DNA from: a virus
Virus record (IMG/VR): IMGVR_UViG_3300045999_009772
Span: 1-30,469 of that record
Length of the DNA stretch: 30,469 bases
Reading direction: 5' to 3' (one strand)
Below, in pieces: positions 16,575-29,587 of this stretch. Numbering within the stretch: position 1 is the stretch's first letter; the number at the start of each line of letters is the position of its first letter. The position numbers and the translations under genes were made by a program. The notes beneath the pieces were generated by a model that was not told the DNA's origin, searched no databases, and worked only from the letters and a program-made list of their open reading frames with translations.

Positions 16575-16970
16575 GTGAAAATCATTCCGTCAGATAAAAT
16601 ATATGTTAACTATAGCCCTATCCATGGTCTTGGCGTATTTGCAAAGAAGAAAATCAAAGAAGGGGATGTGTTCGAAATCTGTCCCGTAATTGATTTAGGA
16701 ATGAACTACGGAGAAACTTCATATGTGTTGTTAAACTATAGATTTAACTGGCCATCAGGAACTACTTGGGAGAAACAAGTAGTTGGTTTGGGGTATGCTT
16801 CTCTTTATAATCATAGCGAAAGTCCGAACGCAGATTGGAGGTCAGTTTATAATGATAATGTGTTTGAGTTTTTCTCCCTTCGTGATATTGAACCAAATGA
16901 AGAAATATTTGTCTATTATGGTGGACAATCATATTGGGAAGATGGAAGGACTTCTATCGAAATTAAATAA
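16575..16970 (+). CDS. SET-domain protein (putative lysine methyltransferase)
   Basis: A 131-residue protein starting at a GTG. All landmarks of a minimal SET domain are visible: 'SPIHGLGVFAKKKIKEGDVF' (residues 14-33, AdoMet-binding GxG loop and first strands), 'YASLYNHSESPNADW' (74-88, the NHS..PN core that holds the AdoMet adenine) and 'FFSLRDIEPNEEIFVYYG' (99-116) with the C-terminal catalytic tyrosine region. The protein lacks pre-SET and post-SET domains, as do bacterial and viral minimal forms. Known members methylate lysine of proteins using S-adenosylmethionine. The substrate here is unknown: host ribosomal or DNA-binding proteins or virion proteins are options. Its stop overlaps the next gene's ATG (TAATG), so it is translationally coupled to the SNF2 ATPase. 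Confidence 0.85.
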   Translation: MKIIPSDKIYVNYSPIHGLGVFAKKKIKEGDVFEICPVIDLGMNYGETSYVLLNYRFNWPSGTTWEKQVVGLGYASLYNHSESPNADWRSVYNDNVFEFFSLRDIEPNEEIFVYYGGQSYWEDGRTSIEIK

Positions 16971-18727
16971 TGCCTCAAGAAATTACATTAGAATCAAGAG
17001 CACTAACAATTTTGGAAGAATACCAAGGTGCTAACAATTACATACTTGAATTAAAGAGAAAAGCTCAGGTAAACAAAAAATTCTACCCGACACGAAGTCA
17101 ATCAGATTACATTATAAGTAATCATGAAAAACAACCAAAGGTTGCAAAAAAATGGATTATACTTGATTCGTATTTTGCACAGAAACTAGCAGACGATAAG
17201 CTCTACACAACAATACCAGATAAAGTTTGGGTTGAAAAATTATTGGCGGAAAAAGATAAGGCATACCACATTTGGGGTAAAGTTTTTGACAATGAACAAC
17301 TACACGATTTTTGGTTACCAAAGGCTTCAATTATTAAAGACAATACAGTAAAAGATGTTGTATTAGATTTTGAAAAATATTCTAATAGGCCACCTCTCGC
17401 ACATCAAAAATACGCAATTCAAAAACTTGTAGAAAACAAAAGATACATTTTAGCTGATGATATGGGTTTAGGTAAAACAACATCAACAATAATAGCAGCT
17501 TTAGAAGCTGGTGCAAAAAAGGTTTTAATTATTTGTCCCGCAACACTTAAGATAAATTGGAAAAGAGAAATTGAAAATTATACAAATAAAAGCGTATCAA
17601 TTGCCGAGGGTAAAAACTTTTCTTCTGAAGAAGATTTTGTAATAATAAATTATGACATTATAAAAAATTTCCATGACACTAAAAGAAAAAATGAATCGCA
17701 AATTATTAGCGCCAATTTTGATTTGGTGGTTGTTGATGAAGCACACTATATTAAAAATGCTCAAGCTCAACGTACGAAACTAATAAACGACATTGTTAAA
17801 AGTGTTGACAGACTATGGTTGTTAACAGGTACCCCAATGACCTCAAGACCAATAGATTATTATAATCTTTTAAGTCTTGTTGATTCTCCAGTTGCCAAAA
17901 ATTGGATGGCCTACGTCATAAGATATTGTGAGGGGTATCAATTCAGGGTAGGACCCAGAAAAGTTTGGAACGTAATGGGTGCATCAAATCTAGAAGAATT
18001 AAGAGACCGAACAACCAATCTTATATTGAGAAGACTCAAAGAAGATGTTTTAGATTTACCCGACAAAATTATTACTCCTGTTTACTTAAGACTTAAATCA
18101 AAAGAGTATGAAGAAGTTATGGGGGAGTATTATAATTGGTATGAAAAAAATCCGGAAGAGTCAAAATCACTAACGGTTCAATTTACAAAGTTAACAAAAG
18201 TAAGACAAATAATTGCGGATGAAAAAATAAATCAGACGATTGAGATAGCGGAAAATATTGTAGAACAAGGAAAAAAAGTTATAGTATTTTGTAACTTTAC
18301 GAACTCACTAAATAAAATTTGTGAACATTTCGGAAAGGCGGCAGTTAAACTCGACGGCTCAATGTCCAAAGGGGAAAGACAAGATAGTGTTGATAATTTT
18401 CAAAACAACGAAAAAGTAAAAGTTTTTGTAGGAAACATAAAGGCAGCAGGTGTTGGAATCACTCTCACTGCAGGTGAGGCGGTTATAATGAACGACCTTT
18501 CTTTTCTTCCTTCAGACCATTCACAAGCCGAAGACAGGGCTTATAGATATGGACAAAAAAACAATGTACTTGTGTATTACCCTATTTTTGAAAATACCAT
18601 TGAGGGGATTATTTATGATATCCTTAATAAGAAAAAACATGTAATCGCAACTGTCATGGGTGACAACAATGGTCCCGCCGATTATGTTGAAGAAATTTTA
18701 CAAAAAATTAACGAACATAGATATTAA
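16970..18727 (+). CDS. SNF2-family DNA-dependent ATPase/helicase
   Basis: A 585-residue superfamily 2 protein with complete motifs: Q-like 'PPLAHQKYAIQKL' (141-153), Walker A 'ADDMGLGKTT' (162-171), Ia 'LIICPATLKINW', Walker B DEAH (256-259), III 'LLTGTPM' (284-290), V 'GNIKAAGVGITLT' and VI 'QAEDRAYRYGQ' near residues 518-529. 'DDMGLGKT', 'LTGTP' and 'RAYRYGQ' identify SNF2/SMARCAL1-type translocases rather than UvsW-type helicases. The first 130 residues form an accessory domain with 'FWLPKASI', an element often placed before the motor in phage SNF2 proteins. It would move on DNA, and fork remodelling or recombination is the probable role, possibly standing in for T4 UvsW. Coupling to a SET gene is unusual. 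A hairpin with a TATTTAT element follows 9 bases after its stop. Confidence 0.93.
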   Translation: MPQEITLESRALTILEEYQGANNYILELKRKAQVNKKFYPTRSQSDYIISNHEKQPKVAKKWIILDSYFAQKLADDKLYTTIPDKVWVEKLLAEKDKAYHIWGKVFDNEQLHDFWLPKASIIKDNTVKDVVLDFEKYSNRPPLAHQKYAIQKLVENKRYILADDMGLGKTTSTIIAALEAGAKKVLIICPATLKINWKREIENYTNKSVSIAEGKNFSSEEDFVIINYDIIKNFHDTKRKNESQIISANFDLVVVDEAHYIKNAQAQRTKLINDIVKSVDRLWLLTGTPMTSRPIDYYNLLSLVDSPVAKNWMAYVIRYCEGYQFRVGPRKVWNVMGASNLEELRDRTTNLILRRLKEDVLDLPDKIITPVYLRLKSKEYEEVMGEYYNWYEKNPEESKSLTVQFTKLTKVRQIIADEKINQTIEIAENIVEQGKKVIVFCNFTNSLNKICEHFGKAAVKLDGSMSKGERQDSVDNFQNNEKVKVFVGNIKAAGVGITLTAGEAVIMNDLSFLPSDHSQAEDRAYRYGQKNNVLVYYPIFENTIEGIIYDILNKKKHVIATVMGDNNGPADYVEEILQKINEHRY

Positions 18728-18764: not shown

Positions 18765-20303
18765 ATGAATAAATTAGAAAAAAAAATTGAACAACTTGAA
18801 AGACAAATAATTGAAAGGAAGTCCGGTCAAGAAAAAAAGTTGTTAATACAAGAAATGAAAAAAATAGGTATTGAAAAATTACCCTATTCTTACTCAGCCC
18901 TCAAACAATTCATTGATTCTGAAACAATGAATTTTCATTATAATAAACATTATAAAGGATACGTAGATAAGTTAAACGACGCTTTGGATAAGAAAAAATA
19001 TGGGGATTTAGAATTAGAACAAATTATTAAAAACATTAGTCGTTACGATAAAACAATAAGAAATAATGCGGGAGGTGCATTTAACCACGCATTATTTTGG
19101 AACATGATAACACCTGAACCCAAAAAATTAACGGGGGAACTATATAAAAAAATTACAAAACAGTACGGAACATTTACAAGATTCAAAAAAGAGTTCGAAA
19201 AAATTGCAAAAGAAAGATTCGGTTCTGGTTGGGTTTGGTTAGTTCTTACCGCAAAAAACGGACTCAAAATAATGTCAACGTCAAATCAAGACAACCCACT
19301 TATGAATGTTATTGAAGGTGGTGGATTTCCTTTATTGGGGTTGGATTTATGGGAACATGCGTATTATTTAAAATATAGAAATAAAAGAGATGAATATATT
19401 TCGAATTTTTGGAAAGTAGTTAATTGGGATTTCGTAACCAAAATGTATGAAATGAAAACGGAGACAAAACTTTTAGAGTCAAAGGAGTTAAAAAAAGTAA
19501 TTTCAGAACAAAAAGAACCTAAATTTTGTCAACCATATGAGGTCGCATTTTATAGCGCACTTATCAATAATAGAAGAATAAAAAAATTATACCAAGATGG
19601 TATAACTTATATTTTAAAAAGTGTTTTCACCCAATTTTGGGTAGAGGCCACAGATAAAGAAATGTCAGGATTTTATGGAGTAGAGTCCCCCGAAGGGAGG
19701 TCTATACTAAATAACCTAAACACTAATTTCAACTCATTCTGTTTATTAGTTAAGGCCGTTAATCGTCAGATAGAAGGAATAGGAAAACCTGAAAAAAAAT
19801 TTGATTTTTCACAAGAAAAAAACAGAACCCTTGAGGAGGTAAAAAGATTCTTGAATGCTTTAAATCACTTCAAAGGTAAAATTTTTACAAAAGACAATGA
19901 AGATTTTATAAACATTATTAATGTCCTATTAGTTCTTTGGAGAAGGGGTCAAAAAAGTGAAAACAATGCAGAAACTAAATTAAAAGAATATTTTGGTAAC
20001 GATGTTAAAATTTCACATATCGGTGGTCATGGTGTAAAGAAAGATGCGTTTAAAGGGGTTGATATTGTAATTAGAATGGATGGAAAAGAATACACAGCAC
20101 AAATAAAACCATACACATCAACTCAAATTGATAATAATATTATTTCACTTGCTGATACAGGTAATGTTAAAAAATATGACGTTGATTGGATGATATTTAG
20201 TCACCCTAAAACTAATAGAATTTTGATATTTAAAAATGAGCCTATATCTAGTCAAGACACCTACTCATTTGATTTGGGTTCGTTGATTCACGAAATAGAA
20301 TAA
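18765..20303 (+). CDS. Mn/Fe superoxide dismutase fused to PD-(D/E)XK-like nuclease domain
   Basis: A 512-residue fusion. Residues 1-32 are a charged helix. Residues about 33-235 are an Fe/Mn superoxide dismutase with all metal ligands: His58 in 'MNFHYNKHYKGYV' (with Tyr66), His108 in 'AGGAFNHALFW', Asp194 and His198 in 'LDLWEHAYYLKYRN'. Gln175 in 'NQDNPLM' with Gly at the other second-sphere position points to the Mn type. It should convert superoxide to H2O2 and O2. A junction with 'LLESKELKKVISEQ' (237-250) and a helical region follow. Residues about 400-450 resemble a PD-(D/E)XK nuclease core: Glu403 in a helix, Asp433 in 'FKGVDIVI', then Gln446-Ile-Lys448 in 'YTAQIKPY'. The SOD call is firm; the nuclease call rests on pattern only. 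The fusion is uninterrupted in one frame. It lies between SNF2 and neck genes. Confidence 0.85.
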   Translation: MNKLEKKIEQLERQIIERKSGQEKKLLIQEMKKIGIEKLPYSYSALKQFIDSETMNFHYNKHYKGYVDKLNDALDKKKYGDLELEQIIKNISRYDKTIRNNAGGAFNHALFWNMITPEPKKLTGELYKKITKQYGTFTRFKKEFEKIAKERFGSGWVWLVLTAKNGLKIMSTSNQDNPLMNVIEGGGFPLLGLDLWEHAYYLKYRNKRDEYISNFWKVVNWDFVTKMYEMKTETKLLESKELKKVISEQKEPKFCQPYEVAFYSALINNRRIKKLYQDGITYILKSVFTQFWVEATDKEMSGFYGVESPEGRSILNNLNTNFNSFCLLVKAVNRQIEGIGKPEKKFDFSQEKNRTLEEVKRFLNALNHFKGKIFTKDNEDFINIINVLLVLWRRGQKSENNAETKLKEYFGNDVKISHIGGHGVKKDAFKGVDIVIRMDGKEYTAQIKPYTSTQIDNNIISLADTGNVKKYDVDWMIFSHPKTNRILIFKNEPISSQDTYSFDLGSLIHEIE

Positions 20304-20321: not shown

Positions 20322-21449
20322 ATGGCAGTAATTCCAGAACCAGAAAGAAGTAGAATATATACTAGAATCAAACATCTTCTTGGTGCACCCTTAAGAAGTG
20401 TTGAATTAGAAGATGAAATGATGGACTCCCTAATGGAGTTATCCATAGGAGATTATGAAGAGTATGTTCTCCAATGGTTAATTGATTCTCAATGGGTAAA
20501 TCTTGTTAATTTAAACATGACTGAAAGGTCTGTGGCAAGAGCTCTTGTTACAAGAACAATGGATTTTGAACAACAGTTTGCATATTCATATTCAAAAATT
20601 GTGGGACTGCAAACAATGGGTCCATGGGTTTTAAAGAAGGATTATTTTATTTTAAGTGCAAACACTCAAAACTATGAAATTCCCGCAGGGCGCGAAGTTA
20701 ATGAACTACTTTGGTTCTCCAACCAACCGTGGACTGCATTTGGTTTAGGAGGTATTGGTGGATTTGGTATGGGGGGTATTGGTTTAGGTGCTAACGAAGC
20801 TGGTTATGCTCAAATGGGGTATCAAGGTTCTTATTTTATGATGTCAGGTTTTGATTATCTAATAAGAATGCAAGAAGCAAATATTCTTAATAGAATACTT
20901 GGAGGTTCTCTAACATACAGAATTACCGCTCTTCCTGACGGAAAGAGAAACATTTTTTTGTATAATACACCAGGAGGTAGATTTAATTGGAATAACTATA
21001 GTATGTATGCCGGAAAGGCTGTGTGGTATTGGTATTATGATGTTGGTCCTGATGATAGAGCGGCGTGTTTGAAAGCAAATCCCGACATTATAAAACTTCC
21101 TACTGATGTACCAATCGAAAATTTGTCTTGGGAAGATTTGAATGTTCCAGGACAACAATGGGTGAGAAGATGGTTTACCGCATATTGTAAAGAAACCTTG
21201 GCAAGAGTTAGGGGTAAGTACAGTGGAAACTTGAAAACTCCAGACTCGGAAATAACCATGGATTACCAAAGTTTATCAACAGAGGCAAAAGACGAAAAGT
21301 CAAAACTTATGGAAGAACTAACCGGCGCTGAAGGGTGGTTAACAAGATTAAGACCTGAAAAAGTTATGGAAAGAGAAGCCTTAATTGCTGAAAATCTAAA
21401 CAAACAAATGAAGTTTAGAGCAATGCCTCGTCAAATTTATGTGATTTAA
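20322..21449 (+). CDS. Neck protein (T4 gp13-like)
   Basis: A 375-residue protein. The N-terminus 'RIYTRIKHLLGAPLRSVELE' followed by 'EMMDSLMELSIGDYEEYV' is the start typical of gp13-type neck/portal-adaptor proteins of T4-like phages. It continues with 'WVLKKDYFILSANTQNYEIP' and 'AGREVNELLWF', a Gly-rich flexible loop 'AFGLGGIGGFGMGGIGLG' (residues about 139-156), and 'WVRRWFTAYCKETLARVRGK' with 'TPDSEITMDYQSLSTEAKDE'. Gp13 joins the portal to the tail. The Gly-rich loop looks like an inserted flexible linker. It is followed after one base by a small beta protein gene, and preceded by the SOD-nuclease gene. Family recognition is from motif memory; no catalytic motifs are present. Confidence 0.6.
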   Translation: MAVIPEPERSRIYTRIKHLLGAPLRSVELEDEMMDSLMELSIGDYEEYVLQWLIDSQWVNLVNLNMTERSVARALVTRTMDFEQQFAYSYSKIVGLQTMGPWVLKKDYFILSANTQNYEIPAGREVNELLWFSNQPWTAFGLGGIGGFGMGGIGLGANEAGYAQMGYQGSYFMMSGFDYLIRMQEANILNRILGGSLTYRITALPDGKRNIFLYNTPGGRFNWNNYSMYAGKAVWYWYYDVGPDDRAACLKANPDIIKLPTDVPIENLSWEDLNVPGQQWVRRWFTAYCKETLARVRGKYSGNLKTPDSEITMDYQSLSTEAKDEKSKLMEELTGAEGWLTRLRPEKVMEREALIAENLNKQMKFRAMPRQIYVI

Positions 21450-21450
21450 A

Positions 21451-21786
21451 ATGGGAATAGTAAAAACAATACCTTCAAGAAGAATCATTAATGGGATGGC
21501 AATCAATACATCCGAAATTTCAGTTGTTTCAGAAAAAGATTACCGTACTAGCGGTGAAGCATGTATTGTTGTTAGAGGTGTTGCAAGTTCGACAATTACT
21601 TTGGACTCAACGACCTCTGACCATATTGTAGTAAAATCAATGACAAAATTAACAATACTTCCAGACATAGGTCTTATAGACGAAGAATACGATGAAATTC
21701 AAATGGATAGATTTGCTTGTGTTGAATTCAGATTTGTTGGAGGAAACTGGTACATTTTATCTTCAGACGGATTGAAGCAGTCCTAA
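21451..21786 (+). CDS. Small beta-rich virion-like protein
   Basis: A 111-residue protein, unassigned, one base after the neck gene. It is composed of alternating strands: 'EACIVVRGVASSTITLDSTT', 'HIVVKSMTKLTILP', 'MDRFACVEFRFVGGNWYILS'. The C-terminal 'VEFRFVGGNWYILSSDG' is the usual last hairpin of small phage capsid-decoration or fibre-tip domains, which often end '...G.W.i.sS.G'. It has no catalytic motif. Its end overlaps the DNA polymerase gene tail-to-tail by 24 bases, so the two genes share coding sequence on opposite strands. A structural or decoration role is inference. Confidence 0.6.
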   Translation: MGIVKTIPSRRIINGMAINTSEISVVSEKDYRTSGEACIVVRGVASSTITLDSTTSDHIVVKSMTKLTILPDIGLIDEEYDEIQMDRFACVEFRFVGGNWYILSSDGLKQS

Positions 21787-24552
21787 TTTTTCCTCCCAAT
21801 TTTCTTCCGCTAATTCGTACATATAATCAGGATTAAGACCTCTTCTACCCCAATAGTTCAATTCTTGTTCTGTTATATCTAACACATCTTCTTTTAGTCT
21901 ATCTTGGTCACCAGACTCAAAAGGCATACCATTTATAAGTTCACATTGTGACGTGGTAAAAATACCCCTTTGTTCAGGGTCTGTCACTAAAAGATTATCT
22001 CTAACTTCTTGTTGGAAAACCACTAACAATGGTTCAATCCTTTTATTAAAAGTTGTTATTGCTCTAGGTACATTATACTCTCCTGTAAGGTCTGGATTTG
22101 TTTCAATTGTACTTTGGTCCAACATGTAACAATTTACAATTACACCATCAGTTATTTTTTTGTATTTTGGATTCAAATTTAAATTATATTCGTTGGTATC
22201 TTTGATTTGTTTTGCAGTCATCTTTTGTACATCTCCTTGTGAAGCTTTTTTTCCGTTATTTACGTACATGATTACATCACCTAGATTAACGTTTAAACCA
22301 TTTTTAATTACGAGTTCCATATGAGCCATTCTACTCATACTATTGCCGGCTTTTGTCTTTTGGGTTAATCGTTTAGTATAATCATCGAGAGTAAGTTTAA
22401 CTTTAGCCCTTTGTGCAATTTTAGACAAAGGGATTTTTTGGTCAAAAATCTTTTGAAGATACTCATAATAGTATTCTATAAAATCCTTACCATCACCGTT
22501 CAACAACAACTTTATACCTTTATCTAAAAATTCTTCAATATAAAGAGGTAATTTTTTTGACTTAATTGAATTGCCGGTTAATTTTATCTTACCCTTAGCA
22601 TCCATTACCGCATAATTTTTCCTGGCGAGGTTTATACACGAAGGCCAAACACCATCAGTATCTAAAGCCATCTCTCCTCTCATGAATATATCGTTATATT
22701 CTGCAACATCCGCATCAGGACCTGTATACTCCTTACCCTCTTTTACCTTCCAATTCAAACCTCTACCAATATATTTATGACTATCCGCATCGTCAGGACT
22801 TGAAAAGTTAACACCGTCCGTGTCCATCACAAGAGGAACGTAACCACGACTCATAAAAAATTTAATCATCTGACGTAGGTATTGTCTGCCCGTACAAGTA
22901 ATCTGTTCACCCATATACATGTCACCCCAAGCGAAAACTTGAGGTGCCGATAATGCGCCAAACATTGAGTTGATGAAAATCTTAATAGGTAATTGCTTGT
23001 TTGAGTATGAGGAAGACAATTGTGGGTCGGTTTTCTCAAATTGTTCTGCTAGTTGTTTGTATTTGATACGGGTATCACGAAAATACTTTAACATTCCTTT
23101 CATTGCGCCCGTCACATCACACTGTGGAAATACATCGTGTACAAGTTGAATAGAGGGGTATAGAGACGAGAAATCTAGTTTGAGTACATTCTTACTGTAC
23201 CCAACCTTAAGTAGTCGAGAAAGACCTCCTACGAAGTCTGTCTTATCTTGTTTACAAGGTATTGCTAAATTATGTTTATAAGACCAAGCAACCATTAACA
23301 TTTTCCATAAAGTAGCTGTTCCCATTGTTGAAACCCTCTCATAGGTTGTGGGTATCATTGATGCAAGGAGAAATGAAGCTTGATTGAATTCTTTGTCTAC
23401 TGCCAAGGTTTCTTCCAAGTCATCGTCAAGGTATCTCTCAACAAGATTGTCTCCTGTGGTTTTTATGTACACATCAGGAAACTTTACATCTAAATCTTGG
23501 TATTCGGATGCTTTTTTATATTTTCCATTTTGAACATTTAACCAATATTCTTCTTTAGCGGAATACATTTTTCCAATGTCGGTATGTTCTATGTAAACAC
23601 GGTCAGGTGCCTCCATACCAATGTACTTCGTAATATATTTAAGTCCTGCGGCTTTAATGTTTGAGTTAATTGCTTGAGCTCTACGAACTGCGTGAATAAT
23701 ATCAATTACATTATAACCCCAAATAGAAGTCTGAAGAAAATCCTCAACTTCGTTTGCGAGTTTTAAAATTGTATCTTTACGAGTATAAGAGTGTTGTGGA
23801 TGTAAGGATTTGATTGACTTTCTCATATCTATCCCTAACCTCTGCCCTCTCTCAAACAACCAATGCCAGTCGAAGTTTGCTGAGTTATAACCACCAATAA
23901 TACTTGGCTTGATTTGGTCAATTACATTAAAGAACTCAATTATTGCACCTTTCTCTTCCGACTCATCTAAACATTCAATAACTCTGTGATATCCTTTATT
24001 AGTCTTGATTCCTATCATGAATATACGACCATCTTTGGGGTCTAAAGCATTTGTTTCCAAGTCAAATACCAAACGAGTAACATCATCATAGTTGTTGAAC
24101 CCTTTAAATAATCTTTTTTCTTTTGAAACAAGATATTGTTCTACTGGTGGTAGAATCATTATTTTATCTTTAGTTTTTTCTCCCCAAGGGTCACACCCTC
24201 CATCCCTAAAAAACTGAATTAGTTCTCTGTATCCTTTAAGAGATTTGACCATAAAGGTCAAACCTTTTTCCAAACGTTCATCACCTTTGGTTTCAAGTTT
24301 ATCAATAACAATTCCATATTTCGACATGGCTTCTTTTTGTGCCATTTTGGAATCATTATAAAAATTCAAACCGCGTAAATCCCCAACCCAAGCAAAGGGA
24401 ATAAATGTATCTTTTCTTATTTCTTTACCTTTACCAGGTATCTCTTTGATTTTGAAAATAGAATTTGAAACGTAGTCAAACTCAATCGCAACTATAAATT
24501 CTTCAGGGTCGTTTCCTTGTAAGAACGACTCAATTTCTTGAGGGTCAATCAT
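21763..24552 (-). CDS. gp43: Family B DNA polymerase (T4 gp43-like)
   Basis: A 929-residue replicative polymerase (T4 gp43: 898). The proofreading exonuclease shows Exo I 'VFDLETNAL' (Asp164, Glu166), Exo II 'GGYNSANFDWHWL' (Asp228) and a probable Exo III 'ERYLDDDLEET' (Tyr374, Asp378). The polymerase shows motif A 'KLDFSSLYPSIQ' (Asp460), motif B 'KIFINSMFGAL' (Lys524, Asn528, Gly532) and motif C 'VMDTDGVNF' (Asp577, Asp579), where the usual Ser after the second Asp is Gly. Motifs A and B are only about 64 residues apart, shorter than in T4, so the fingers are compact. It copies the phage genome with the clamp and clamp loader, which are not in this window. The gene stands alone between a structural block and the surface block, convergent with the small beta gene. 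Confidence 0.95.
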   Translation of the reverse strand: MIDPQEIESFLQGNDPEEFIVAIEFDYVSNSIFKIKEIPGKGKEIRKDTFIPFAWVGDLRGLNFYNDSKMAQKEAMSKYGIVIDKLETKGDERLEKGLTFMVKSLKGYRELIQFFRDGGCDPWGEKTKDKIMILPPVEQYLVSKEKRLFKGFNNYDDVTRLVFDLETNALDPKDGRIFMIGIKTNKGYHRVIECLDESEEKGAIIEFFNVIDQIKPSIIGGYNSANFDWHWLFERGQRLGIDMRKSIKSLHPQHSYTRKDTILKLANEVEDFLQTSIWGYNVIDIIHAVRRAQAINSNIKAAGLKYITKYIGMEAPDRVYIEHTDIGKMYSAKEEYWLNVQNGKYKKASEYQDLDVKFPDVYIKTTGDNLVERYLDDDLEETLAVDKEFNQASFLLASMIPTTYERVSTMGTATLWKMLMVAWSYKHNLAIPCKQDKTDFVGGLSRLLKVGYSKNVLKLDFSSLYPSIQLVHDVFPQCDVTGAMKGMLKYFRDTRIKYKQLAEQFEKTDPQLSSSYSNKQLPIKIFINSMFGALSAPQVFAWGDMYMGEQITCTGRQYLRQMIKFFMSRGYVPLVMDTDGVNFSSPDDADSHKYIGRGLNWKVKEGKEYTGPDADVAEYNDIFMRGEMALDTDGVWPSCINLARKNYAVMDAKGKIKLTGNSIKSKKLPLYIEEFLDKGIKLLLNGDGKDFIEYYYEYLQKIFDQKIPLSKIAQRAKVKLTLDDYTKRLTQKTKAGNSMSRMAHMELVIKNGLNVNLGDVIMYVNNGKKASQGDVQKMTAKQIKDTNEYNLNLNPKYKKITDGVIVNCYMLDQSTIETNPDLTGEYNVPRAITTFNKRIEPLLVVFQQEVRDNLLVTDPEQRGIFTTSQCELINGMPFESGDQDRLKEDVLDITEQELNYWGRRGLNPDYMYELAEENWEEKLGLLQSV

Positions 24553-25028: not shown

Positions 25029-25049
25029 AACAATAAATATATTGTTATG
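25026..25049 (-). repeat. Inverted repeat covering a start codon and a TATTTAT element
   Basis: CATAACAATA and TATTGTTATG form a perfect 10-pair palindrome with a 4-base centre. On the minus strand it spans the stop codon of the 558-residue gene, a TATTTAT element (25033-25039) and the start codon of the 126-residue gene. A translational switch by hiding the start codon is possible; it is not an obvious terminator. Confidence 0.55.
25033..25039 (-). promoter_or_regulatory. TATTTAT element upstream of the BppU-like gene
   Basis: TATTTAT 4 bases before the ATG at 25028, in the centre of a perfect inverted repeat. Confidence 0.35.
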
Positions 25050-26721
25050 ACTCTTTCCTTAACTCTCTATCGTAATGTTCGAACCTATCATGTTCGGTGG
25101 GCGTAATAAGTAACAATCCTGGGTTAAGCTCTTCTTTTTTCATAAGTTGAAACATATGACTCATCCATGTTTGTTCGAAAGGGTGAGCCCAAGTTGTATC
25201 CAAAAACATTTTTTTGTTTCCTGTTTTTGAAACTACCTGTGGCCAATTACAATAATAGATATCTCCGACAACATAAGGGATTTGTTTGTGAACGTGGATT
25301 TCTCTGAACTCTGTTCTTGGTGCGTTAGGGTCCAACCCTACTTGAGGTAACCTTGGTTTGTTCGGCCAAAATTTTCCCCTAACTTCTTGTGGTACATTAT
25401 ACCATGACCATTGAGTCCCATTATCACCATAAAATTCAGAAAAATTTAACTTTAAAAAATCAAAATTTTCTTTTTTACAAATTTCGAGTGATTTTTGATA
25501 AATGTTTTTTACATACCTATTAAATCCATTTCTACAAACTTGTTCTTTTCCGTTATAAAAAAACATATCGTCTTCAAAGAAGAACATAAAATCGTTTTCA
25601 GATTTTTCAAAATGTTCAGCAATATATTGTCTTCCACCACATATCCCTAAATTTTCACCAGAGTTAATATGTTCAAAACCATACTCTTCACAGAGTTCTT
25701 CATATTCGTAAAAAAATTTAGTATCTGTGGAATTATTAAGAAGATATTTTTTTGGTTTGGAAATAAAGTCGGGGTCATAATCTAACATCGACTTTATTAG
25801 TGTTTTGAATTGATTTGGACTATTAAATGTTATAACATACACTCCGACCTTTGACATGTCCAAGGTGTTATTACTTTTAACTGAAGACTCGGACTTTGGT
25901 TTTATCAAATCATTTTTCAAATCTTCAAAAAACTTACCTAACAATCCATTTGATTCAATTTCAAAGTAATTTATAATATCGGAATGCTTATAACACATAA
26001 TACTGAATATTGATTCTTCAGTACCCATAAATCCTTCATCTAAAGAACTCTTTAATAATCCATAGTAGAGAGAATTTATTTCAGATATTACGTGTTTAGG
26101 CCCACCAAAAAAACCACCTCTAGCAACTCTTTTTACTTTCGCACCCGCAATTTCATTCAGTTTGTTATACTCAAAACCATGAATCTCTCTTTCAGCGTCA
26201 TAAGGAAAACAAATAAATGAAAACTTGTTGACGTATTTTTCTAATTTATCTAAAACCTTATCGTGAGTGAAATAACCCGGATGTACTGTATTAGTTAAAG
26301 CCCCATCAATCCAAAACAAAAACTCCGAATCAAATTGGTCCATTATTTTTGCATCATGTAAAAGAAATACTTTTGACATGACTAAAGGGTTATAGTTTTC
26401 CAAACGAGCTTGTGTTGACTCTGATAACCAACCCGCAAGACTTGACCAATTTGGGTCTTTTCTTATTTGTTGAATTTTTTCAAAAAACTCGTTTTCTCTA
26501 AACCAAGAGAGTGGTCGTAAGATAAATTGAGTATTACTCCTATCTCTTTTCTTGAAAACGAAATCACGAAGTTCCTCATCTCCAAAAATTATAAGATTCT
26601 CATTAATATCTAATAACTTATCAAATTTTTCTAAATAATGAGAAAAAGGACGTGACCACCCTTCAGAAAGATTACCTCTCCCAATATCCCATATTCCAGT
26701 TACAAGTGTTATTTTACTCAT
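25045..26721 (-). CDS. HtrL/YibB-like domain fused to family 2 glycosyltransferase
   Basis: A 558-residue two-domain protein. Residues 1-270 resemble the HtrL/YibB (WlaTC) family: 'ITLVTGIWDIGRG' at the start, 'NLIIFGDEELRDFVFKKRDR', then 'FLFWIDGALTN' (the 'WiDgg' element) and 'ARGGFFGGPKHVISEI', and a late 'GFMGTEESIFSIMCYKHSD'. Residues about 289-558 form a GT-A domain of the family 2 type: 'VGVYVITFNSPNQFKTLIKS', a nucleotide-sugar region 'NSGENLGICGGRQYIA' and the acidic metal site 'FFFEDDMFFYNG' (about 383-385). Two probable transferases in one chain could add two sugars in sequence. It overlaps the upstream gene by 8 bases in a four-gene coupled operon. The acceptor is unknown. Confidence 0.75.
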   Translation of the reverse strand: MSKITLVTGIWDIGRGNLSEGWSRPFSHYLEKFDKLLDINENLIIFGDEELRDFVFKKRDRSNTQFILRPLSWFRENEFFEKIQQIRKDPNWSSLAGWLSESTQARLENYNPLVMSKVFLLHDAKIMDQFDSEFLFWIDGALTNTVHPGYFTHDKVLDKLEKYVNKFSFICFPYDAEREIHGFEYNKLNEIAGAKVKRVARGGFFGGPKHVISEINSLYYGLLKSSLDEGFMGTEESIFSIMCYKHSDIINYFEIESNGLLGKFFEDLKNDLIKPKSESSVKSNNTLDMSKVGVYVITFNSPNQFKTLIKSMLDYDPDFISKPKKYLLNNSTDTKFFYEYEELCEEYGFEHINSGENLGICGGRQYIAEHFEKSENDFMFFFEDDMFFYNGKEQVCRNGFNRYVKNIYQKSLEICKKENFDFLKLNFSEFYGDNGTQWSWYNVPQEVRGKFWPNKPRLPQVGLDPNAPRTEFREIHVHKQIPYVVGDIYYCNWPQVVSKTGNKKMFLDTTWAHPFEQTWMSHMFQLMKKEELNPGLLLITPTEHDRFEHYDRELRKES

Positions 26722-27595
26722 ATATCCTATTAAATTCTTCTAAAATTCTATAAAAACTTTTATTTTCTTCAAATAGTTTGGGACTAGTTCCTGGAGGACA
26801 ATTGTCAGGGCACCACCAAATATCAAAATGTTTTCTAACAAAAAGTTCAGGGTGGTTGTAATACATTAAAGTCATTAAAACTTCTTCATGGTGAACCCTT
26901 TCTTCGGGTGTAACTTTATAAGCATAATCTTCAAAAAGTGTTACTATGTTATCCCATAAGTCTCTATGACCACCAAACATCCCACCTATGATGTGAATCT
27001 TTCTTTCGTAGTTTTTGTACCATCTTTCATTAACGGTACCTGACCAGTAATTTCTGTCATTATCTTTACCTAAAATTACAAACTTACCATCCGAATCCTC
27101 TATTAGATTTTTAAGGAAATCGTTATTGAATAAATTACTTTCATAGTATTTTCCTTGGGGATGGTTGGAACCAACCAAGTATTTGTTTGGAATCAATCCA
27201 CAATGAGAGAGGCCGGCATCTATCCAAAAATAATAATCATAAGATTTGTCTTCATTCCACCACCATCCAAATTTAGACCATTGGATTTCAACACATCTAT
27301 CCCCTGTTTTTGCGCTTTCAAAATCTTTATGTTTTTGGAAAAGCTCTTCGTATTTTGTACCTCTCAAGTCAAAAGTTCTGAACTCTAATTTTTCAGGACT
27401 TACACTATGATGCTCATAGAAAAACTTTTTTAACCTATCAATTTCCCTTTCAGAAGTATAACAAAGAAAATCGGCGTCCGTCATTTTCAATAGGGACAAC
27501 AAACTATATTGATAATGTCCTCCACGAGATGACCTACCACCTAACTCGGTTCCGCTTAGGTCGCTGTAAATACATGTAATAAATTTAACTTTCAT
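26714..27595 (-). CDS. HtrL/YibB (WlaTC)-like putative glycosyltransferase
   Basis: A 293-residue protein resembling the first half of the following gene product. It has 'KVKFITCIYSDLSGTELGGR' at the N-terminus, 'YDYYFWIDAGLSHCGLIP' (the 'WiDaG' element, near residue 120-137) and 'IHIIGGMFGGHRDLWDNIVT' with a following 'HHEEVLMTLMYYNHPELF'. The GG-x-FGG plus acidic 'HHEE/GTEE' spacing is shared by the two proteins, so they look like paralogues. WlaTC/HtrL proteins occur in lipopolysaccharide and capsule loci of bacteria, and a glycosyltransferase GT-A fold is the usual prediction. It overlaps both neighbours (11 and 8 bases), indicating translational coupling. Substrate unknown. Confidence 0.7.
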   Translation of the reverse strand: MKVKFITCIYSDLSGTELGGRSSRGGHYQYSLLSLLKMTDADFLCYTSEREIDRLKKFFYEHHSVSPEKLEFRTFDLRGTKYEELFQKHKDFESAKTGDRCVEIQWSKFGWWWNEDKSYDYYFWIDAGLSHCGLIPNKYLVGSNHPQGKYYESNLFNNDFLKNLIEDSDGKFVILGKDNDRNYWSGTVNERWYKNYERKIHIIGGMFGGHRDLWDNIVTLFEDYAYKVTPEERVHHEEVLMTLMYYNHPELFVRKHFDIWWCPDNCPPGTSPKLFEENKSFYRILEEFNRIYE

Positions 27596-28319
27596 AACTG
27601 AAATCTTTATGTAAATTTTCGTCTTTTAATTTTTTTATTTCACCCAAGTTTAAATATGTGTTTGGAATTTTCTTGGGGGAATATAAATTCCAATTGTAGG
27701 TTTGAGTATAAAAATTATTATAAAGTCCGTGAGAAACATCTGACCAATCGGATATTTGAGGACCTATTGGAATTATCGGGACATAACTTTGATACTTTGA
27801 GGTTACAAATTGATATATAAAATCATCAATTGCATAATACCCTATTTTTGATGGGTCTTCAATCTCCAAAACTTTGTCGTAGATTGAATTATGATACATT
27901 ATCATGTTAGTAGCAAAAATACCTCTATGGTGTTCTTCCTTTGGGGGAAGATTTGTTATGTCTAAAAACCATTTGGATTTTGAACTAATATTCACAGGTC
28001 TATTAATAGTTGGAGCCAAATTTATAACTGCGAATTCTAATCCGTCACTATCTCTCTCCATTTGTTCTATTAAGGATTTTGCATAAGGCATAATTGTACA
28101 ATCATCCTCAACAACTAAAACCTTTTCGTAATTTCTTTCTTTTGCCAATTTTATAACCTCTAAATGAGACCTCGTACAACCTACATGACTATTTGTGTCA
28201 ACCGCAGGAAAATATTCATAATCCCACCCAACATAATCCATTTCTTTTTTTATTGATTCGAGTCTGTCTTTTCTTCTTTCAAGGTTGACAACAAACTTGG
28301 GAGCATCAGTGAAAATCAT
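27585..28319 (-). CDS. Family 25-like glycosyltransferase
   Basis: A 244-residue protein. The N-terminus 'FVVNLERRKDRLESIKKEMD' is the signature of the LPS glycosyltransferase family GT25 (PF01755), followed by the 'FPAVDTNSHVGCTRSHLEVI' region (GC..SH, residues 47-52) and 'KVLVVEDDCTI' with the metal-binding Glu71-Asp72-Asp73. The later part 'MIMYHNSIYDKVLEIEDPSK' then 'YYAIDDFIYQFV' contains the second acidic motif ('aiDdfi'). GT25 enzymes add galactose or related sugars to LPS or, in collagen modifiers, to hydroxylysine. In the phage the acceptor may be a virion protein or host glycan. It starts on the stop codon of the GlcNAc-transferase (TAATG). Confidence 0.88.
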   Translation of the reverse strand: MIFTDAPKFVVNLERRKDRLESIKKEMDYVGWDYEYFPAVDTNSHVGCTRSHLEVIKLAKERNYEKVLVVEDDCTIMPYAKSLIEQMERDSDGLEFAVINLAPTINRPVNISSKSKWFLDITNLPPKEEHHRGIFATNMIMYHNSIYDKVLEIEDPSKIGYYAIDDFIYQFVTSKYQSYVPIIPIGPQISDWSDVSHGLYNNFYTQTYNWNLYSPKKIPNTYLNLGEIKKLKDENLHKDFSYES

Positions 28320-29587
28320 TAGCTTACGTTATTATGATTTAGTTGTCCTGTTATTCTATCGCACCAACCTTTGGACTCAGAGTGAGGCCAAACAACCCAA
28401 TACTTTGGAAGAACGTCTGTATTAAACTCTCTCCAAATTTTACAATACTTATCGGGGTCTGAAAAATATCTTGCAATTTCATTTTTATCAGAATCTTTTC
28501 TATATAAAGTTGTGTCATCAGGTCCGTGAAAAGCAACTACCCAAAAATCATAATCTTTTTCAGTTACTTGAGAATATCCTATGTCGATGCAATGTTTGAA
28601 TACTTTTGTAAAACTATTTTTCCAATCCTCTTCTGTTTCAAAATTATATGGGTTTGGAGGATAGTTTTTATCCAATGTATATTTTTGTACCGCTCTTTTT
28701 TCAAAAAGAAGACCAGAATACTTTTCATACTCTCTTAATGTTCTTTCAGTCCCAAAACCGTAAAGACCTTCATGACCTTCTTGTTTTTCATTATCCATTC
28801 CAAATAATTTTCTATTTGTAAGATGAGAATGTTTGTTTTTATCCCCCCACGTTTTATCATCATCCCACTGTTTTGTTCTACCTTTTCTTGTATACTCATG
28901 AAAGACAACGGGGAGGTGTGGATGAAATAAATCATACCCGTGAGTATAGGCCCTTGCAGCTATTGAAATTTCTTCCCCGTGGAAATAGTATTCAGGATTA
29001 TGTTGGACTTCCTTTGAAAACTGACCTAATGTAAAACAGAAGTGTGCAGAATAAAACCTAGCAGTAACAGGTTTTGTCATTTCTCTCCAACCTGGAATTG
29101 TTTCAGGTAAGAAAAACACCGCACCTTCAGGAATAAATCTATCGAAAACCATCCTCCAAGCATCTTGAGCTCTTCCCGATGGTTCATTATCAGGGTCAAA
29201 GGAGGGTACATAACCCGTAAGTAGAGGTTTCTTATACCCATCCTTTTGTAGACCCTTTATCATTTTGATTAGGATATCGTCCCAATCCTTAACAAATCTC
29301 ATATGAGAATCAATTTGCATTGTATAAGTTTCACCACCATAAAGTTGTTGAACTTGATGTCTTGCCCAACAAACACCTTTAGCTTCTTGGTATGGAATGT
29401 CCAAAATTTTAAATCTCTTATCTTTTCTATATTCATCAAGATTGTCAAAACCATCAGTCTCTGAATACTGTCTAGCAATGGCCAATACCAAGTTTTTTGG
29501 TTTTTTTGCGTTTTCCAACATATTCTTAATTGTTGGAACTAATTGTGGGTCTCTGTAAGAAGCAATTTGAATAAAAATTTTCATCAA
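28319..29587 (-). CDS. GlcNAc-transferase family protein (Skp1-type)
   Basis: A 422-residue protein. 'KIFIQIASYRDPQLVPTIKN' (the ASYRDP element, residues 9-14), then 'AKGVCWARHQVQQLYGGETY' and 'TMQIDSHMRFVKDWD' (Asp93-Ser-His95 metal motif), and 'YYFHGEEISIAARAYTHGYD' with 'LFHPHLPVVFHEY' identify the UDP-GlcNAc:polypeptide N-acetylglucosaminyltransferase family (PF11397) described from Skp1 hydroxyproline modification in Dictyostelium. A C-terminal 120-residue extension ('KVFKHCIDIGYSQVTEKDYD' onward) is not part of the core and may bind another partner. It is the first gene of the coupled operon, after a terminator. In T4-like phages such enzymes are not standard. Acceptor unknown; the Thr/Pro-rich protein upstream is an attractive candidate. 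Confidence 0.85.
   Translation of the reverse strand: MMKIFIQIASYRDPQLVPTIKNMLENAKKPKNLVLAIARQYSETDGFDNLDEYRKDKRFKILDIPYQEAKGVCWARHQVQQLYGGETYTMQIDSHMRFVKDWDDILIKMIKGLQKDGYKKPLLTGYVPSFDPDNEPSGRAQDAWRMVFDRFIPEGAVFFLPETIPGWREMTKPVTARFYSAHFCFTLGQFSKEVQHNPEYYFHGEEISIAARAYTHGYDLFHPHLPVVFHEYTRKGRTKQWDDDKTWGDKNKHSHLTNRKLFGMDNEKQEGHEGLYGFGTERTLREYEKYSGLLFEKRAVQKYTLDKNYPPNPYNFETEEDWKNSFTKVFKHCIDIGYSQVTEKDYDFWVVAFHGPDDTTLYRKDSDKNEIARYFSDPDKYCKIWREFNTDVLPKYWVVWPHSESKGWCDRITGQLNHNNVS

Follow-up and report, generated by a model that had tools for sequence, protein, structure and literature searches.

Described systems closest to the locus

Polyvalent proteins (Iyer et al. 2017, PMC5512222) are encoded by phages and conjugative elements and are multidomain proteins that combine disparate enzymes, among them HExxH zincin-like metallopeptidases, DNases and SNF2 ATPases. 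The zincin-like metallopeptidases are the commonest of these domains, and the proteins are thought to be delivered together with the DNA and to be proteolytically processed (PMC5512222). They provide the closest concept to the protein described here, in which a superoxide dismutase (SOD) and a nuclease-like domain share one chain and whose sister architectures include a HExxH module. The present family differs in that the SOD is a constant hub, that the proteins are small (two to three modules) and that gp21-type [LI]xE motifs lie between the modules. The protein of the window itself carries no metallopeptidase module, and the word superoxide is absent from PMC5512222.

A second point of reference is bacteriophage T4, in which internal proteins are directed to the prohead by propeptides that the gp21 protease removes, cutting after L/I-X-E (PMC9026906). 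The T4 internal proteins IPI-III and Alt share with the present system a gp21 protease, a short propeptide ending in L/I-X-E and basic cargo, and in them too the targeting signal is constant while the cargo changes fast (PMC9026906). The present precursor differs by having two modules and internal sites, and its packaging is presumed.

Virus-encoded SODs have been described in several settings. A SOD is packaged in the virions of giant viruses that infect eukaryotes (PMC9405923), and freshwater phages have been reported to possess SOD genes as a defence against reactive oxygen species (PMC6802176). The view of the first-pass annotation that viral SODs are rare has to be given up in the light of those freshwater genes and of the phage SOD candidates in IMG/VR, which amount to at least 599 stretches (single scans). 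The large myoviruses PA5oct/MIJ3 and Vibrio phage 2.275.O encode stand-alone proteins that have the Fe/Mn SOD C-terminal domain in common with the present family, but these are only 182-189 aa long, about 25-31% identical, have a shortened alpha-hairpin domain and lack a partner module. The SOD of Pseudomonas phage PA5oct (L083:3031-3579) is degenerate and annotated as 'hypothetical protein'; its record bears an ESI-MS/MS note from which it follows that the protein has been detected, its location in the virion not being stated there.

A relative of the fusion is already present in the databases. A0A6J5L953, a 501 aa protein named 'superoxide dismutase' [uncultured Caudovirales phage], matches the C-terminal half of the window protein in structure (E 1e-15, TM 0.83), which indicates that a related fusion has been deposited; it is 28% identical and its name covers the SOD only. 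As far as found, the SOD-nuclease fusion was thus deposited earlier and is undescribed in the open-access literature, in agreement with the first-pass annotation, the search having been confined to that literature.

A fusion gene at a conserved locus

The window, by which the whole analysed stretch of DNA is meant, corresponds to a virus record in IMG/VR and is 30,469 bases long. The fusion gene occupies positions 18765..20303 on the + strand as a single open frame that begins with the ATG at 18765, ends with the stop codon at 20301-20303 and encodes 512 aa, confirming the uninterrupted frame first noticed in the sequence. The phage origin of the window is equally borne out, as it encodes T4-like structural proteins, namely a tail sheath, a T4_baseplate protein, a weak match to the gp19 tube and a head-tail adaptor.

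The same fusion was sought in other phage genomes. A first IMG/VR protein search returned 80 loci, of which 79 are full-length matches with 71-100% identity and one is cut by a contig end. Two IMG/VR scans together place the complete 512-aa frame in 156 loci, a count in which some contigs occur twice, and these correspond to 57 distinct proteins. The loci derive from many metagenomes, the length is fixed at 512 aa and the longest contigs measure 317-326 kb. Among the 57 distinct fusions the median dN/dS is lowest in the SOD (0.033), takes values of 0.10-0.13 in the C-terminal half (nuclease 0.134) and 0.13 in the N-terminal 35 residues, and reaches the maximum of the gene in the linker (0.23).

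The gene order is kept across the fusion loci and reads SNF2 helicase, fusion gene, neck-like gene, a gene of 111 aa and, on the opposite strand, PolB. In the window the upstream neighbour is a SNF2-family helicase (16970..18727, +; Pfam SNF2-rel_dom E 1e-29), and the downstream neighbour is a neck or head-tail adaptor-like protein (20322..21449, +; phrog_211 E 3e-10) that also shows a weak match to a Flavobacterium phage 'putative head completion protein'. The family B DNA polymerase (21763..24552, -), assigned by domain match and synteny, forms the boundary of the locus, and a SET-domain protein (16575..16970, +; Pfam SET E 1.6e-15) is a variable neighbour that is missing at some loci. The number of loci, their many metagenomes, the fixed length, dN/dS values far below 1 and the conserved synteny rule out an assembly artefact or chance frame with near certainty. 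A cluster of HtrL_YibB- and GlcNAc-transferase-like genes, apparently glycosyltransferases, adjoins PolB at window positions 25045-29587 (-).

The SOD gene, joined to the nuclease or to other exchanged modules, is carried by large T4-like viruses of bacteria that are found worldwide, mostly in fresh water. Their closest capsid proteins belong to a 484-kb uncultured phage and to phages of Microcystis, Flavobacterium and Rhodothermus. The closest cellular SODs are mostly from Bacteroidota (about 45-56% identity), and judging from sequence a Bacteroidota host is likely.

The superoxide dismutase domain

The N-terminal part of the fusion is a complete Fe/Mn SOD with both domains, all four metal ligands and the Gln and Gly-Gly of Mn-type enzymes; it is predicted to be active as a dismutase. 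Pfam places Sod_Fe_N (PF00081) at residues 36-115 (E 3.4e-22, 79 bits against a cut-off of 27) and Sod_Fe_C (PF02777) at residues 123-226 (E 1.3e-39, 135 bits against a cut-off of 20.9), and the nearest sequences in the PDB are SODs of bacteria, for the most part Mn enzymes (E ~2e-57). The predicted mature product comprises residues 31-238 (18855..19478, +; ~24.7 kDa). The SOD half is poor in a full-length AF2 model owing to a shallow alignment, and the assignment relies on the sequence evidence instead.

The residues named in the first-pass annotation, H58, H108, D194 and H198 together with the Mn-type Q175, are invariant in the 57 full-length fusions and in a set of 188 phage SODs that covers all architectures, and the second-shell residues are likewise invariant among the 188, which implies selection for catalysis. 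This invariance weighs heavily against a scaffold or neck role, in which the SOD would be a stable fold with a structural function in head or neck assembly and catalysis would be secondary. Such a role would agree with the position of the gene, which adjoins the neck gene whatever the architecture, but no homologue was found among the ten T4-like or huge phages searched, and it is considered very improbable.

In a maximum-likelihood tree a branch with 100/99 support separates the phage SODs encoded at this locus from the cellular SODs tested, the exceptions being two long-branched rows, PA5oct and the Vibrio phage. The phage SODs are further set apart from the cellular ones by extensions that bear [LI]xE. 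Several phage records (matches H1-H9, e.g. OR845917 and OR850395) contain SODs resembling ordinary bacterial genes, some on contigs of 1-3 kb, and these are probably host DNA.

The C-terminal half

The two halves were examined separately, the SOD by Pfam and residues 251-512 by AF2. The model of the latter (pLDDT 86, pTM 0.72) consists of a helical domain at residues 251-378 (19515..19898, +), with the conserved motifs LNNLNTNFNxF and EMSGFYG, and a PD-(D/E)XK nuclease-like domain at residues 379-512 (19899..20300, +), in which a long helix carrying E399 is followed by strands bearing D433 and Q446-x-K448. Its structural neighbours in the PDB are I-Ssp6803I (Z 8.0), NhoI (7.9), the SPARDA nuclease (7.8) and Hjc (7.5), as well as RecU, DpnI, PvuII and EcoRV. 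The best match has an rmsd of 3.9 over 110 residues, a Z of about 8 being in the middling range and the comparison using a predicted model. Approximately the top 30 rows of the VIA-align output all belong to the PD-(D/E)XK superfamily, so that no non-nuclease fold stands at the head of the list.

E399, D433, Q446 and K448 are invariant in the 57 distinct fusions and form a QxK variant of the active-site motif. On the strength of the near-uniform list of neighbours and of conserved residues where the fold needs them, the C-terminal domain is predicted to have the PD-(D/E)XK nuclease fold, and it may act as a nuclease. The nuclease-like character proposed in the first-pass annotation is upheld in this predicted form, including its residues D433, Q446 and K448. 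Its candidate catalytic residue Glu403 is rejected, since this position varies among the 57 sequences and the invariant glutamate of the helix is E399. The domain shares with I-Ssp6803I, NhoI, the SPARDA nuclease, Hjc and RecU the predicted alpha-beta-beta-beta core, E399, D433 and Q446-x-K448 (Z 6-8), but differs from these nucleases in lacking a sequence match to any family and in having its own helical domain in front. No usable family match to the C-terminal half was obtained in Pfam, PHROGs, NCBIfam, PADLOC or the PDB sequences, two peptide patterns retrieved no relative from bacterial genomes, and ten other T4-like or huge phages, a set without a positive control, yielded neither the domain nor a homologue.

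The domain also occurs by itself. A 735-kb phage encodes a stand-alone homologue of 290 aa that is 26% identical, keeps the equivalents of all four residues and begins approximately where the linker of the fusion ends and the predicted cut falls; no SOD was found in this phage. A second stand-alone homologue is present at locus L323. An IMG/VR scan with the homologue of the 735-kb phage as the only query gave no matches.

SET-domain genes are found near the nuclease domain both in the 735-kb phage, where the gene is adjacent (L082:3275-3712), and in the clade of the window, these phages being otherwise distant. A genome of ~317 kb contains a second gene (L177:1246-2517, -) whose product contains a D...QVK motif and weakly matches the nuclease domain in a profile comparison (E 7e-8); the start of this protein, YEGTNNFINDLK, resembles that of the SNF2 helicase of the window, YQGANNYILELK.

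Exchange of modules around a constant SOD

Further IMG/VR scans with other SODs yielded at least 208 distinct complete SOD proteins, and the set of 188 comprises those among the matches listed, of all architectures, that could be anchored on the SOD start. Among these listed matches 77 of the 188 carry an N-terminal HExxH metallopeptidase-like module (for example L466:2500-2967, L463:2488-2967 and L610:3536-3988) and 136 carry a C-terminal module of 109-380 aa. The C-terminal modules form five clusters, again among the matches listed: C0, the type of the window, with 97 members, C1 with 18, C2 with 13, C3 with five and C4 with three. Profile comparison relates C2 to C0 (probability 97%, E 1.7e-10). 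The same method finds no relation to C0 for C1 (L466:3574-4596), C3 (L463:3571-4698) or C4 (L532:4592-4918), which have no family match either. By eye, C1 shows a conserved YDFEAL...SPYDV...KISCK, possibly another nuclease motif. The HExxH module has a weak match to DUF6055 (E 4e-4, under the cut-off) and another weak match in Synechococcus phage B23.

Every architecture sits between the SNF2 helicase and the neck gene, in the order SNF2 helicase, SOD gene, neck gene and PolB. In the SOD tree the C1, C2, C3 and no-module types are intermixed, and their distribution calls for many changes; the type with an N-terminal module plus C2 by itself requires no fewer than four. Interleaved architectures at a fixed locus indicate that partners have been exchanged around a constant SOD.

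This exchange bears on the possibility that the fusion acts intact as a bifunctional enzyme, the attached SOD giving the nuclease oligomerisation, control, or superoxide or metal protection of its site. The fusion is indeed uninterrupted and of constant length at all its loci. Mn-SODs are oligomers, so a fused nuclease would be multimeric. In sister phages, however, the same SOD has unrelated modules as partners or stands without any, the nuclease domain occurs without SOD in the 735-kb phage and at L323, and the linker evolves fast except at its [LI]xE residues; an intact enzyme is accordingly thought quite unlikely. Swapped or absent partners, together with junctions that resemble protease sites, also make functional coupling between the halves unlikely, and with it the earlier suggestion that redox sensing is coupled to cleavage.

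Junctions that resemble protease sites

Four [LI]xE motifs are conserved throughout the fusion family, at E17, E30, E238 and E248, and all lie in the N-terminal segment or the linker and none inside the domains. The propeptide-like N-terminal segment, residues 1-30 (18765..18854, +), ends in IQE/M (the slash marks a predicted cut) and its E17 and E30 motifs are invariant in the 57 sequences; AF2 models a helix at residues 2-33 with low confidence. T4 capsid targeting sequences have 10-19 residues, compared with the 30 of this segment ending in [LI]xE, and no clear similarity is seen. The linker (19455..19514, +) contains the predicted sites LLE238/S and ISE248/Q and resembles N-terminal tags with K-L-T-E-S. 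It is the fastest-evolving part of the gene, yet both of its motifs are invariant.

The pattern extends to the other architectures. A Glu directly precedes the SOD start (the E30 position) in 188/188 distinct phage SODs and is part of [LI]xE in 182 of them, as against none of 49 Bacteroidota-like cellular SOD frames. Downstream, [LI]xE occurs within 30 residues of the SOD in all 136 proteins with a C-terminal module (40-56% in shuffled linkers). Each of the five module clusters has 1.3-2.3 motifs per linker compared with 0.5-0.7 after shuffling, that is two to four times fewer, the motif being short (1.3% background per position) and the linkers rich in L, I and E. These junction counts are inflated by phylogenetic dependence, as they come from related sequences and are not independent events, the pattern being the same in five module clusters. 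Of the SOD-only proteins 3/52 have a downstream [LI]xE, a weak contrast given their short tails. A common [LI]xE inside the SOD, LWE197, is part of the metal-binding DxWEH motif.

The junctions are also what an auxiliary metabolic role fails to explain. According to this alternative the SOD would guard the virocell from superoxide, the partner and linker would be incidental and nothing would be packaged, which fits with the SOD as the constant and most constrained part of the protein, with the ROS-defence genes including SOD reported in freshwater phages (PMC6802176) and with the stand-alone SODs of PA5oct-like phages and Vibrio phage 2.275.O. It leaves without explanation the conserved [LI]xE at both borders of the SOD across architectures, the tag-like linker and the exchange of modules at a single locus adjacent to the neck gene, and is regarded as unlikely.

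Head maturation and the proposed cargo precursor

A gp21-like protease and a gp23-like capsid protein are encoded in all three near-full-length genomes of ~320 kb that were searched (G001, G003 and G004), in which the same fusion is present; the window is a 30-kb fragment without gp21 and gp23 genes, and the evidence on protease and capsid comes from these genomes. The site LINE/A in the capsid protein of the clade aligns with the cleavage site LTE/A of T4 gp23. Among ten large contigs that carry other architectures, all of them fragments, seven have no gp21 match. Other ORFs of the clade bear N-terminal tags such as MKKIIRLTESDLVRLVKKVVKE, which end in [LIV]xE, and the SOD linker is similar to these in its K-L-[LT]-E-S start and [LI]xE end. 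The motif [KR][LIV][TLSM]ES occurs in G001 eight times at N-termini and once internally, the internal one being the SOD linker; G003 and G004 each have two other internal instances. The predicted mature products are basic.

The specificity of gp21, the gp21 and gp23 homologues, the capsid site LINE/A and the tag-like linker with its [LI]xE motifs favour a packaged precursor. The fusion is judged, by a small measure, to be probably a cargo precursor that is packaged in the head of a large T4-like myovirus and cut at head maturation into a free Mn-SOD and a nuclease. Entry of the precursor into the prohead core would be directed by residues 1-30 and probably also by the tag-like linker, and a gp21-type prohead protease would then cut after the [LI]xE motifs at E17, E30, E238 and E248. 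Cleavage would free, inside the head, an active Mn-type SOD (approximately residues 31-238, ~25 kDa) and a PD-(D/E)XK nuclease-like protein (approximately residues 249-512, 30.6 kDa, i.e. ~31). The SOD could then keep superoxide away from the packaged DNA, or from DNA and proteins of a cell that has just been infected. The nuclease and the other exchanged modules may target host DNA or competing DNA once injected. The idea of the first-pass annotation that the protein is injected or packaged is better supported in this form, by the [LI]xE sites, the gp21 and gp23 homologues and the tag-like linkers, and remains a deduction from sequence.

A broader proposal, which is tentative and falls a little short of being probable, is that this T4-like clade possesses a modular head-cargo polyprotein from which a constant active Mn-SOD is freed by the prohead protease and injected together with interchangeable partners. 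As part of the same tentative proposal these partners would include at least two nuclease-type modules, a HExxH peptidase-like module and further modules. If true, SOD would be a virion-borne enzyme of bacterial viruses that protects DNA or counters defence, and an antioxidant enzyme carried in the particle or delivered at entry would imply that oxidative stress, during infection or in sunlit water, selects on virions. Multi-effector cargo of the T4-like kind would in that case be made from one precursor at one locus, with a constant core and swapped modules freed by the head-maturation protease, and modules bounded by [LI]xE might serve as a simple sequence signature for further packaged effectors in uncultured phages.

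T4-type late promoters (TATAAATA) show no excess upstream of the SOD gene, with 7/187 against 57/1189 genes, a point against the cargo precursor. A recurrent tag, (K/R)LTESDLxxLVKKVIKE, is found on otherwise unrelated small ORFs (L177, L178-L193 and L280-L312). This tag is a candidate for the capsid-targeting propeptide of the clade, and the proteins packaged by these phages could be catalogued by means of it; the cluster of capsid genes has one tagged ORF in its vicinity.
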